Assembly: GCA_947497245.1 (NCBI GenBank)
Contig: CANMFO010000003.1
Location: 496,001 to 560,000, forward strand
Length of the DNA: 64,000 nt
Direction: 5' to 3'
Origin: an uncultured Flavobacteriaceae bacterium
Lineage (GTDB): Bacteria > Bacteroidota > Bacteroidia > Flavobacteriales > Flavobacteriaceae
The position numbers were made by a program, and so were the translations under genes. Shown one piece after another: positions 27,783 through 63,210 of this stretch (its first letter is position 1; every line of letters begins with the position of its first letter). The notes beneath the pieces were generated by a model. It made no database searches and was not told the origin of the DNA. It saw nothing but the letters and a program-made list of their open reading frames with translations.

Positions 27783-27855
<73 letters not shown>

Positions 27856-59311: not shown

Positions 59312-59722
59312 ATGTACGCTGTTTTTCATAAAATGACCGCGCTTGCCATGGCACTCCTGCTTTTGGCTTCCACGACTTCTTGGAAAGTGGAAAAGCACTA
59401 TTGCATGGGACACTTGGTCGATGTTGCCTTCTTTGCCGAGGCCCTGGGCTGTGGCATGGATTTGACCGGTACGGTCGGGGACGCTTCGGAGGAAATGATG
59501 TCCTGCTGCGATGAAGTGGTCATCGTCATTGATGGTCTGGATGATCTAAAGCTTTCTTTTGATGACATTTCCTTGGATCAGCAACTGTTTTTGGTTGCCT
59601 TTTCCCATGCCTACAGCAATCTTTTTGAAGATTTGGGGGAACATCTGGTTCCCCACGCAAAATATCCGCCCCCTATCTTGGTCCGGGACATCCATGTACT
59701 CGACCAGGTCTTCCTCATATGA
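59312..59722 (+). CDS. HYC_CC_PP-family small exported protein
   Basis: A 136-residue protein named after its three conserved motifs, all seen here: KHYCMGH near residue 30, MSCCDE near 64 and KYPPP near 115. It has an N-terminal hydrophobic signal (MTALAMALLLLASTTSW). Family members occur in Bacteroidota next to TonB-dependent receptors and metal-binding proteins, and the Cys/His motifs suggest metal binding, but no function is proven. It is the first gene of the metal-related locus running to the window end. The ATG at 59312 is preferred to the GTG six bases upstream. Confidence 0.85.
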   Translation: MYAVFHKMTALAMALLLLASTTSWKVEKHYCMGHLVDVAFFAEALGCGMDLTGTVGDASEEMMSCCDEVVIVIDGLDDLKLSFDDISLDQQLFLVAFSHAYSNLFEDLGEHLVPHAKYPPPILVRDIHVLDQVFLI

Positions 59723-59732
59723 TTTTATTTTC

Positions 59733-59834
59733 ATTCCCGCCCGGGCGGGAATCCGTTCATCTTTGGTTCTAAAGTGAACCGGGGATGGTCCGTGTACCCA
59801 AGAGGGTACCCTTTAGATTTCCCGATGTAGGGAA
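59733..59834 (+). repeat. Cluster of palindromes in the leader of the HMA-MauE gene
   Basis: Three inverted repeats lie in 102 bases. First, ATTCCCGCCCGGGCGGGAAT (59733-59752), a perfect 20-base palindrome. Second, a nested pair: TCTAAAG (59768-59774) with CTTTAGA (59811-59817) enclosing GTACCC-aaga-GGGTAC (59794-59809). Third, TTCCC-gatgta-GGGAA (59819-59834). The first resembles short intergenic palindromic units found in many genomes. None has a T tract suited to termination. GTGAAC follows the outer arms twice. The region may be a folded 5' leader that controls the downstream gene, or a repeat insertion. Confidence 0.6.
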
Positions 59835-59858
59835 GTGAACATAAAATTAAAATTCATC

Positions 59859-60584
59859 ATGAAACACACTTATACAATTACCGGGATGCAGTGCGAGACC
59901 TGCGCGGGGTCCATCAGGGAACGATTGTCCGAAATCCCACAGGTCTCCCGGGTCGATGTCGACCTGGAGAGTTCAAGGGCGGAAATTTCCATGCAGGAGC
60001 ATGTCCCCCTACCTATTTTACAAACGGCCTTGCCCAATAAATATACCATTGCCGAAATGAGTGGCCAAAACAACGGCTCCGTACAGGGCGAAGCAACGGA
60101 AAAATCCAAACTACGACAATTGGGCCCACTATTTCTGATATTCTTCTATCTCTTGGCCGCTTGCTTCCTATTGAACTATTCCGATTGGGACAGCAAGGAG
60201 GCCATGCTTGATTTTATGGGGCTCTTCTATATCGTGTTCAGTTTTTTTAAGCTGCTCGACTTAAAGGGTTTTCCCGATAGTTTTCGGATGTACGATCCCT
60301 TGGCAAAGGCCATACCGGCCTACGGATGGGCATATCCGTTCTTGGAGGTGGTACTGGGGCTGCTGTTGTTGATGCGCTTTCAGGTTGCTGTTGCACTTGT
60401 TGCCACGGTCGTGATCTTGGGGATCACCACTTTCGGAGTGACCAAGACCCTACTGGATAAGAAGAGCATCCGCTGCGCCTGTTTGGGAACGGCCCTTAAA
60501 CTTCCCATGACGGAGGCTACCTTTATTGAAAACGCCATTATGCTCGTCATGGCACTGATCATGTTGGCCCAACATTATTTTTAG
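59859..60584 (+). CDS. HMA domain fused to MauE/DoxX-like membrane domain
   Basis: A 241-residue protein in two parts. Residues 1-65 are a heavy-metal-associated domain with the metal-binding loop GMQCETCAGSIRERL. From about 85 on it has four membrane helices of MauE/DoxX type, including DLKGFPDSFRMYDPLAKAIPAYGWAYPFLEVVLGLLLL, and a conserved CACLGTALKLPMTEATFIENAIM segment with a further Cys pair. The HMA domain should lie in the cytoplasm and give or take copper or a similar ion; the membrane part may handle thiol redox or the ion itself. The start at 59859 matches the HMA opening MKHTYTITGM. The TonB receptor gene follows after 11 bases. Confidence 0.85.
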   Translation: MKHTYTITGMQCETCAGSIRERLSEIPQVSRVDVDLESSRAEISMQEHVPLPILQTALPNKYTIAEMSGQNNGSVQGEATEKSKLRQLGPLFLIFFYLLAACFLLNYSDWDSKEAMLDFMGLFYIVFSFFKLLDLKGFPDSFRMYDPLAKAIPAYGWAYPFLEVVLGLLLLMRFQVAVALVATVVILGITTFGVTKTLLDKKSIRCACLGTALKLPMTEATFIENAIMLVMALIMLAQHYF

Positions 60585-60595
60585 AAAAGGAAAGG

Positions 60596-62836
60596 ATGAA
60601 AAAGTATACAATAATTGCCCAAATGGTACTATTGCCACTACTTTCCTTTTCACAGGAAAAGGTGGAGGGGATGGTCATGGAGGCGAATAGCACAAACAAA
60701 CATATTGGCCTGGCCGGCGCGAACGTGTATTGGATGGATTCCCAAATCGGGACCGTGACGAACGAAGAAGGATTGTTCAGCATTCCCTATTCGACGGAAT
60801 ACGATAAACTGATCATTAGTTTTGTGGGATTTCAGTCGGACACTTTGGAGGTCAACGGCCCCAAAATGCTGCACCACAGCCTGAAACCTTCCAATGAACT
60901 GGATGAAGTGGTCGTGGAGAAAAGACGGGACGCCGTCCAAAAGGCCTATTTCAGCTCGCGGAACGTCATTACGGTGAACAGCGCGGAACTTTTAAAGGCG
61001 GCCTGTTGCAATCTCTCGGAAAGTTTTGAGACCAACCCTGCCATCGATGTCAATTTTTCGGATGCCCTTACCGGTACCAAGCAAATTCAAATGTTGGGCC
61101 TTACCAGCCCGTATTTGCTCATCACCCAGGAAAATATCCCCATGGTACGCGGGGCTTCCCAAGCTTATGGATTGACCTTTACCCCCGGTACTTGGGTGGA
61201 GAGTATCCAAATCACCAAGGGAGCCGGGAGCGTGGTCAACGGATATGAGAGCATTTCCGGACAGATCAATACCGAACTGGTAAAGCCCTTGACCGATAAG
61301 ACGCTCTTTGTCAACGGATATGCCAATAGAAATGGTCGGTTGGAACTGAACACCCATTTCAACCGAAAGCTGACGGACAAACTTAGTACGGGACTTTACA
61401 TCCACGGAAACCGCAGGGACGCCAAGGAGGAAAGGAACGATGACGGTTTTTTGGATGCCCCTTTGGCGAATCAAATCAATATTATGAACCGTTGGCAGTA
61501 CCAAAACCCTGAATCGGGATGGGTAAGCTTTGTCAATGTGCGTTTTCTGAACGATGAAAAACAGGTGGGCCAAAGCAATTTTGATCCCACCCTTGATAGG
61601 TTGACCACCAATAGCTGGGGAAGCGAGATAGCCACCCGTAGGTTCGATTCCTCTGTCAAACTGGGGTATGTGTTTCCGGAAATGCCCTTTCAGAGCTTTG
61701 GATTTCAAGCGTCGTACAGCAATCACAAACAGGATTCCTACTACGGATTTAACCGATATGACATAGACCACCAAAGTGTGTATTCCAATCTTATTTTCAA
61801 TTCGATCATCGGAAATACCCAAAACAAGTTCAAAACGGGTATAACCCTGGCGCATGATGGCTATAAAGAAGGGGTCAATGCGATGGATTATGGGAGGACC
61901 GACAATTCTTTGGGGGCTTTTTTTGAGTATAGCTACGACGATTTGGAAAAAGTGAGCCTCACGGCCGGCCTGCGGGTGGACACGCACAATCGCTTGGGCA
62001 CTTTTATGACCCCAAGATTGCACATACGTTATTCCCCTTGGGAAAGAACGAGCCTTAGGGGCTCTTTGGGCCGGGGAAGGCGCGCGGCCAACATTTTTGC
62101 CGAGAACCAACAACTTTTCGGATCTTCCAGGGAAATTCTTTTGTCCGATGCGGGCGGACCGATATATGGCCTGGAACCAGAGGATGCCTGGAACTATGGG
62201 CTCAGCTTTTTGCAGGGATTCACACTTTTTGAAAGGCCGGGAAATGTAACGGTGGATTTTTATAGGACCGATTTTAAGAACCAGATCGTAGTGGATTGGG
62301 AGACCCCCGGGGCAGTGGCCTTCTACAATTTGGACGGACAAAGCTTTGCCAACAGCTTCCAATTGGAGGTGAACCATGAGATTCTGCAAAATTTGGAGCT
62401 TCGAACGGCCTATAAATTTTACGATGTCCGCACCGATTTCAAAAAGGGCCGGTTGCAAAAGCCATTGCAGGCAAAGCATCGCTTCTTTGCCAACTTGGGA
62501 TACGAAACAAAGATTCGGGAGAATGGCGGTCAATGGCGTTTCGATTATACCCTACATACCTTAGGGCGGCAACGCCTGCCCGATACCTCGACCAATCCGG
62601 AGGCATTTCAATTGCCCCGGAACTCCCCTTCCTATAGTCTGATGAACGCCCAGGTGACCAAGGTTTTCTCCAAGGCTGTTGAAGTATACGTGGGTGGGGA
62701 AAATTTGACTAATTTTACACAAAACAGCCCCGTTTTGGCATCGGAAGACCCCTTTGGTCCGTATTTTGATACCAGTATCGTATACGCCCCGATCATGGGC
62801 AGGATGTTTTATGGCGGATTTAGATATAAAATGTAA
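60596..62836 (+). CDS. TonB-dependent receptor of a metal-related subgroup
   Basis: A 746-residue outer-membrane receptor. After the signal (LLPLLSFSQ) comes a carboxypeptidase-regulatory-like beta domain (about 20-100), then the plug (about 105-225) and a 22-strand barrel ending GRMFYGGFRYKM. The plug carries an unusual Cys pair, LLKAACCNLSESFETNPAIDV, known to me from receptors beside HMA and HYC_CC_PP genes. It imports a scarce ligand, most likely a metal ion or chelate, using energy from TonB. It lies 11 bases after the HMA-MauE gene and 14 bases before the secreted HMA gene, so they form an operon. Ligand unknown; copper is a guess. Confidence 0.9.
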   Translation: MKKYTIIAQMVLLPLLSFSQEKVEGMVMEANSTNKHIGLAGANVYWMDSQIGTVTNEEGLFSIPYSTEYDKLIISFVGFQSDTLEVNGPKMLHHSLKPSNELDEVVVEKRRDAVQKAYFSSRNVITVNSAELLKAACCNLSESFETNPAIDVNFSDALTGTKQIQMLGLTSPYLLITQENIPMVRGASQAYGLTFTPGTWVESIQITKGAGSVVNGYESISGQINTELVKPLTDKTLFVNGYANRNGRLELNTHFNRKLTDKLSTGLYIHGNRRDAKEERNDDGFLDAPLANQINIMNRWQYQNPESGWVSFVNVRFLNDEKQVGQSNFDPTLDRLTTNSWGSEIATRRFDSSVKLGYVFPEMPFQSFGFQASYSNHKQDSYYGFNRYDIDHQSVYSNLIFNSIIGNTQNKFKTGITLAHDGYKEGVNAMDYGRTDNSLGAFFEYSYDDLEKVSLTAGLRVDTHNRLGTFMTPRLHIRYSPWERTSLRGSLGRGRRAANIFAENQQLFGSSREILLSDAGGPIYGLEPEDAWNYGLSFLQGFTLFERPGNVTVDFYRTDFKNQIVVDWETPGAVAFYNLDGQSFANSFQLEVNHEILQNLELRTAYKFYDVRTDFKKGRLQKPLQAKHRFFANLGYETKIRENGGQWRFDYTLHTLGRQRLPDTSTNPEAFQLPRNSPSYSLMNAQVTKVFSKAVEVYVGGENLTNFTQNSPVLASEDPFGPYFDTSIVYAPIMGRMFYGGFRYKM

Positions 62837-62850
62837 ACCACTAAAATAAG

Positions 62851-63210
62851 ATGATGAAAAGAACAATGTTGGCACTGACCCTTTTATTGTGTTCCACGGT
62901 GATTTTTGCCCAGGAAAAGAATAAGAAAATGAATTTTGAGGTAGATGGCAAATGCGAAATGTGCAAGAAGCGCATAGAAAAAGCGGCCTTGGGCGTACCC
63001 GGGGTGAAATATGCCCTATGGGACATTCCCACGCACCAGCTGTCGCTGATCGTTGATGAAAGAAAAACAGATCCCATGAAGATAAAGACGGCTTTAGTGA
63101 CCGTGGGACACGATACCAAGGAACTGAAAGCCTCCGATGAGGCATATGCCAGTGTGCACCCCTGTTGTAAGTATCGGGAAGACGATACCGACGATAGCGA
63201 AAAGCACTAG
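62851..63210 (+). CDS. Secreted heavy-metal-associated (HMA) domain protein
   Basis: A 119-residue exported protein: signal ending STVIFAQ, then an HMA domain. The metal loop is VDGKCEMCKKRIEKAAL (CxxC) and the fold continues GVPGVKYALWDIPTHQLSLIVDE. An extra C-terminal HPCCKYR motif and a His at the end add potential metal ligands. It would bind copper or a related ion in the periplasm and may pass it between the TonB receptor and the inner-membrane HMA-MauE protein. A second ATG at 62854 is equally possible. A terminator follows at 63231, so this gene closes the operon. Confidence 0.88.
   Translation: MMKRTMLALTLLLCSTVIFAQEKNKKMNFEVDGKCEMCKKRIEKAALGVPGVKYALWDIPTHQLSLIVDERKTDPMKIKTALVTVGHDTKELKASDEAYASVHPCCKYREDDTDDSEKH

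Follow-up and report, generated by a model that had tools for sequence, protein, structure and literature searches.

The gap that follows the HYC_CC_PP gene in Flavobacteriaceae holds, by our computations, a structured RNA whose basal helix takes in the stop codon of that gene, and the structure is conserved by pairing rather than by sequence. We consider it reasonably likely that this gap works as a translational-coupling RNA switch that is opened by the ribosome on HYC_CC_PP. The element was recognized in the window, by which we mean the whole 64,000-nucleotide stretch of uncultured Flavobacteriaceae DNA that was analysed (contig CANMFO010000003.1, positions 496,001 to 560,000). There it fills the gap between the HYC_CC_PP gene, whose stop codon ends at 59722, and an HMA-MauE fusion gene with its ATG at 59859, a distance of 136 bases, as given in the preliminary description of this DNA. 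The genes and signals of the locus are the following.

59312..59722, + strand: HYC_CC_PP family gene (NF047658; NCBIfam match of 102.8 bits, cutoff 28), the proposed regulatory upstream ORF
59720..59722, + strand: TGA stop codon of HYC_CC_PP, within the basal helix
59850..59858, + strand: A/T-rich stretch directly 5' of the HMA-MauE ATG, unpaired in the predicted fold
59859..60584, + strand: HMA-MauE fusion gene (Pfam HMA and MauE), the proposed regulated gene
60596..62836, + strand: TonB-dependent receptor gene, 11 nt 3' of HMA-MauE and on the same strand
62851..63210, + strand: gene of an HMA-domain protein, on the same strand as HMA-MauE

Folds were predicted from single sequences at 37°C. 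The + strand folded at -52.4 kcal/mol where shuffles averaged -36.2 (z -4.1), and none of 200 shuffles was as low. The gap alone (59723-59858) gave a + strand z of -5.0 against dinucleotide shuffles. On the - strand z was just -1.7. The hairpins of the gap are thus confirmed as real and beyond chance. In the predicted fold a basal helix, P1, encloses four hairpins, P2 to P5, and takes in the HYC_CC_PP stop codon.

59720..59732, + strand: 5' arm of the basal helix P1, made of the stop codon and 10 nt, in the predicted fold
59733..59752, + strand: hairpin P2, the 20-base palindrome, 8 pairs with a CCGG loop (mean pair probability 0.95)
59757..59788, + strand: hairpin P3, 13 pairs, 59757-59769/59776-59788 (mean pair probability 0.98)
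59794..59809, + strand: hairpin P4, GTACCC/GGGTAC (mean pair probability 1.00)
59817..59836, + strand: hairpin P5, ATTTCCC/GGGAAGT (mean pair probability 0.96)
59837..59849, + strand: 3' arm of P1, stopping 9 nt short of the ATG, in the predicted fold

The preliminary description had reported three inverted repeats in this gap, and all of them lie where it placed them, including the perfect 20-base palindrome ATTCCCGCCCGGGCGGGAAT at 59733-59752 and the GTACCC/GGGTAC arms at 59794-59799/59804-59809. It had missed the 3' hairpin (59817-59823/59830-59836) and the basal helix. The arms of the third repeat, TCTAAAG/CTTTAGA, are present but do not pair in the predicted fold, where they are outcompeted by the 13-pair hairpin. 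The exact register of P1 in the window has a mean pair probability of only 0.43, with a competing register that uses bases closer to the ATG; the total probability that the stop codon pairs with the start region is 0.94-0.99.

Dense structure in front of metal genes is what a metal-binding riboswitch, or an intrinsic terminator or attenuator, would also produce. We regard this reading as highly improbable, since Rfam has no match to the gap, the HMA-MauE class shows no ligand-binding core that is conserved, and no stem is followed by a T tract. A search with Rfam 15, at gathering and at relaxed thresholds, found no match in the gap; elsewhere in the window it gave only a tRNA gene (27783-27855, - strand), the sole match at gathering score, and chance matches. 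An intrinsic terminator was rejected because no T run follows any stem on either strand, in line with the preliminary description, and a simple scan counted 4 terminator-like sites, close to the shuffle rate of 2.8.

A dispersed palindromic repeat had been among the first suggestions for this gap. Within the window ATTCCCGCCCGGGCGGGAAT is single even when 3 mismatches are allowed (shuffle expectation 0.01), and a whole-genome search found the exact 20-mer once in 5.25 Mb. A looser pattern search of the same genome gave one other, loosely similar site, and a many-copy, REP-like repeat was therefore rejected for this genome. Apart from a 37-42 nt palindrome stretch in one genome (G009) and a gene end in another (G005), DNA homologues of the gap were not found in the genus. 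G009 has two stretches similar to the 5' hairpin, and genomes of the genus carry 0 to 3 related palindromes each (strands counted separately). In some relatives palindromes like the 5' hairpin are dispersed, each genome having 5 to 18 copies; one of them, CATTCCYGCGAAGGCRGGAAT, occurs 18 times in G015, 14 times in G284 and 10 times in G285 (strands counted separately). Repeats of this type occupy the gap behind HYC_CC_PP in a few relatives (L062, L085, L129), and these cases are what would speak for a REP-like palindrome lying in the gap by chance. That explanation is nevertheless barely credible, given the copy number in the own genome and the relatives, most of which have unrelated hairpin sequences in the same layout.

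Palindromes of the form CATTCCYGCG(A/T)AGGCRGGAAT are dispersed in several Flavobacteriaceae (G015, G284, G285 and others; L244-L247). They sometimes occur as inverted pairs about 50 nt apart, for example at G285:C2:213502 and 213552, and resemble REPIN-type repeats. In the gap of L085, two such palindromes form a very strong hairpin (fold z -11), which suggests that the gap structure can take up mobile repeats. Dispersed repeats may therefore serve as raw material for gap hairpins.

We gathered by genome searches 47 loci in which HYC_CC_PP lies directly 5' of HMA-MauE. Their gaps are 63 to 186 nt long, and the fold z, on average -3.46, is negative in every one. Co-directional control gaps from the same loci had a mean of -1.71 (Mann-Whitney p 1.6e-7); this control set rested on crude gene calls and included a few HYC gaps, and cleaned controls (97 gene pairs) gave the same picture. 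P1 begins a median of 1-3 nt past the stop codon, the outermost pair in these 47 loci at a median of 1 nt, and the distance from the end of P1 to the ATG has a median of 12 nt. When 5' and 3' arms were swapped between species in the HMA-MauE class, own arms paired better with each other than foreign ones (Z -12.9). With arms that include the stop codon, Z reached -14.7 over 70 HYC_CC_PP to MauE gaps, and also -13.2, against -2.6 in controls; the swap keeps base composition, and its statistic ignores shared ancestry. Conservation of the stems in relatives, which had been put forward as the point to check, therefore held for pairing but not for sequence, which turns over. Stems unconserved in relatives and also without a second copy, the outcome named beforehand as speaking against the element, are not what was found: pairing is kept though the sequence changes.

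The stop codon itself belongs to the basal helix. The mean probability that the HYC_CC_PP stop pairs with positions -30 to +3 of the next start is 0.88 before HMA-MauE, 0.88 before TonB receptor genes and 0.92 before CusA genes, versus 0.13 for the same measure in the 97 control gene pairs. Of 127 distinct HYC_CC_PP genes, 121 stop with TGA and 119 have T as the base after the stop; among control genes, TGA ends 40 of 305 (p 3e-63 for the stop codon). The pentamer TCAAA stands in the 30 nt that precede the next ATG in 67% of HMA-MauE gaps and 51% of CusA gaps, compared with 8% of controls. In four Winogradskyella-type loci the stop is TAA or TAG, and the partner shows TTA where others have TCA; loci with such an altered partner come mostly from one genus and possibly represent one or two events. 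In L150, another TAA locus, the partner is not compensated. The TGA preference is absent outside Flavobacteriaceae, in loci of the class Bacteroidia.

These positions bear on the idea that the hairpins guard the upstream part of a processed mRNA against 3'-5' decay, or else mark where the transcript is processed, giving unequal expression of the operon genes. Stable intergenic hairpins do act in this way, protecting mRNA and differentiating the expression of operon genes, in other operons. Decay or processing requires neither a helix that runs from the stop to about 12 nt before the ATG across species nor a stop codon chosen by pairing, and we judge this explanation quite improbable here.

The structure depends on the upstream HYC_CC_PP gene rather than on the gene that follows. 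HYC_CC_PP (NF047658) is present in 239 of 251 sampled Flavobacteriaceae genomes. Loci were collected by HMM, the sampled ones being the best-scoring matches, and across 110 of them the gap was structured whatever follows, be it HMA-MauE, a CusA-type RND pump or a TonB receptor. With a mean z of about -2.0, gaps before TonB receptor genes are weakly structured overall. HMA-MauE genes with HYC_CC_PP upstream had a mean z of -2.90 (n=51) versus -0.34 for those without it (n=46). The own genome of the window carries a second HYC_CC_PP gene (G000:C1:1393824-1394234, L242), followed by a structured 119-nt gap and a CusA-type pump gene. A further batch, made of 25 loci of the class Bacteroidia from outside the family and three Flavobacteriaceae loci (L248-L275), was also structured behind HYC_CC_PP, with a mean z of -3.08, 67% of gaps below -2 and a Z of -3.1 in the arm test. 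Outside Flavobacteriaceae, HYC_CC_PP usually precedes a CusA gene, and the layout is present but weaker. In some of these loci (for example L252, L253 and L257) the helix reaches right up to the ATG of the CusA gene.

The gaps of the CusA class can be aligned. Compensatory changes, named in the preliminary description as a sign to look for, were found there: 24 of 32 pairs show two-sided changes in at least one sequence. Paired cells make up 80.8% of the total, and sliding the partner by 1-3 columns lowers this share to 43% or less; these pair counts use the structure of a single member, because helices were misaligned in the first alignment and its RNAalifold consensus was poor. G-U cells outnumber A-C cells (109 versus 41), which is expected if the + strand RNA is the selected form, and in this alignable class the computations indicate an RNA of the + strand. 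A covariance model built on the CusA class detects distant members of the class and the second gap of the own genome (L242, E 0.002). It has no match to the window element or to the HMA-MauE class, and for this reason we claim no sequence homology between the CusA and HMA-MauE forms of the RNA.

In L175:436-544 and the other CusA-class gaps (alignment A2), a near-invariant stretch that stays unpaired, TGCTGTATTC or a close variant, separates the two hairpins. Pairing does not account for its conservation; the stretch may be a binding site or an arm of an alternative structure.

The HYC_CC_PP protein of the window has an N-terminal hydrophobic stretch, the HYC and CC motifs, and a C-terminal PP followed by 15 residues and the stop. 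In the alignment of relatives the hydrophobic stretch is conserved and the HYC and CC motifs are invariant or nearly so. The spacing from CC to PP is 54-56 in 144 of 147 proteins measured, and PP lies 15-16 residues from the end in 146 of 149 relatives. The C-terminus is fixed to the last residue, ending in F/Y-L/I-I. HYC_CC_PP was rejected as a member of DUF2946: with Pfam DUF2946, neither the window protein nor any of 36 HYC_CC_PP proteins gave a match at E values up to 1. By analogy with known sensors, HYC_CC_PP is probably a small exported protein whose nascent chain senses metal, most likely copper. HYC_CC_PP might instead be an ordinary protein, with P1 serving as a simple translational coupling that keeps two proteins in step and involves no metal sensing. 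All the structural evidence fits such coupling, which requires no pause. It sits less well with a C-terminus fixed in length and sequence, with PP 15-16 residues from the end, as in regulatory nascent chains, and the variety of downstream genes (HMA-MauE, CusA pump, TonB receptor) would be odd for a fixed stoichiometry; we hold it to be a serious though unlikely contender.

In the switch that we favour, the end of HYC_CC_PP, with its stop codon and the next bases, would pair with the bases just 5' of the next start codon to form P1, and three to four hairpins would occupy the space between the P1 arms. Closed P1 would leave the HMA-MauE start region partly blocked. A ribosome that reaches the end of HYC_CC_PP, and especially one that lingers there, would melt P1 and expose the start region. 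The Cys/His motifs of the nascent HYC_CC_PP chain would sense a metal, most likely copper, and the conserved C-terminus would pause translation. Three elements of this model are inferred: higher translation once P1 opens, a pause of the ribosome, and copper as the signal. Since PP stands 15 residues from the C-terminus, stalling at PP itself would leave the ribosome short of P1, and the model needs a pause at or near the stop. Flavobacteriaceae mostly do without Shine-Dalgarno signals.

Predicted accessibility agrees with the opening step. Masking 13 nt past the stop, which imitates a terminating ribosome, frees positions -30 to -9 by +0.19 in the HMA-MauE class and +0.28 in the CusA class, compared with +0.05 in controls. 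In these classes taken as a whole, a mask over mid-gap bases has no such effect. In the window alone, mid-gap masking opens the start region almost as much as stop-side masking (0.61 versus 0.63), which makes the prediction less specific for that sequence. The effect of stop-side masking also bears on control at the level of transcription, in which, as has been proposed for CruR, a ribosome paused on HYC_CC_PP would mask or expose a Rho-loading site, with the hairpins adjusting the pause or the access of Rho. CruR is a similar upstream ORF, followed by a TonB receptor gene, and works through Rho. A Rho mechanism gives no reason, however, for the pairing of stop and next start, or for the freeing of the start region by stop-side masking; moreover, Rho sites are described as unstructured and C-rich, whereas the HYC_CC_PP gaps are highly structured and often A/T-rich. 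We therefore consider control through Rho fairly improbable.

The suggestion that the gap is a metal-sensing leader stands in so far as the layout is conserved, tied to HYC_CC_PP and placed before metal-homeostasis genes, but sequence conservation of the riboswitch kind is lacking. Any sensing of metal would more likely be done by the nascent HYC_CC_PP protein than by the RNA. Our widest proposal is a tentative one, whose chances we put somewhat short of even: Bacteroidota would have nascent-chain metal sensors, unrelated in sequence to DUF2946, that act through an RNA zipper between stop and start, which dictates the stop codon and leaves the inner hairpins free to change, and whose targets, across hundreds of species, would be copper efflux pumps, HMA-MauE proteins and TonB receptors. 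If the switch model holds, the HYC_CC_PP family gains a function, the way in which these bacteria couple metal sensing to translation becomes apparent, and a stop codon has been selected for base pairing and not for termination. A structured RNA kept by its layout amid near-complete sequence change is also of a kind that sequence-based searches for RNA families would miss.

The closest known systems are the nascent-chain copper sensors. The two reports on them (PMC9973294, PMC9426467) present CutF and CruR as small upstream ORFs that carry Cys and PP motifs and, as nascent chains, control the copper genes behind them. In CutF-cutO of Rhodobacter capsulatus, as set out in the main text of the CutF paper (PMC9973294), a nascent exported copper sensor unfolds an intergenic stem-loop. 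The HYC_CC_PP loci resemble that system, as portrayed in the same text, in having a small upstream ORF with a Cys motif and a C-terminal proline motif, a metal-homeostasis gene downstream and an intergenic RNA structure over the downstream start region. They differ from it as described there in that HYC_CC_PP has HYC and CC motifs instead of CxxC/CxxxC, carries PP 15 residues from the end and is not a Pfam DUF2946 protein; because of this missing DUF2946 match we call it CutF-like in action and not a CutF. The RNA differs too, being multi-hairpin with a base that includes the stop codon, unlike the CutF stem-loop of that account, whose published model shields a Shine-Dalgarno sequence (PMC9973294). 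According to the main text of that paper, Bacteroidota have CutF-like proteins (40% after normalisation), selected with a filter that required PP within 15 residues of the end; the same main text does not name HYC_CC_PP or describe an RNA element of the present kind (PMC9973294). CruR-bfrG of Bordetella pertussis (PMC9426467) likewise has Cys and PP motifs at a fixed distance in an upstream ORF, in an operon with a TonB receptor, and its intergenic region measures 162 nt. In contrast to HYC_CC_PP, CruR acts by Rho-dependent termination and has a RAPP motif 3 residues before its end (PMC9426467); the structured gap and the stop/start helix set HYC_CC_PP apart from it. SecM-secA, VemP and MifM work in the way proposed here for HYC_CC_PP: a ribosome held near the end of the first ORF melts a downstream stem-loop that lies between the genes, and the next start becomes accessible. 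Those arrest peptides sense protein export, however, and arrest on HYC_CC_PP is our proposal. Finally, as in classical translational coupling, a helix joins the end of the first gene to the start of the second and blocks the start site; in the HYC_CC_PP loci, unlike the classical cases, this helix spans large hairpin-filled gaps in three gene contexts across the family and includes a biased stop codon.
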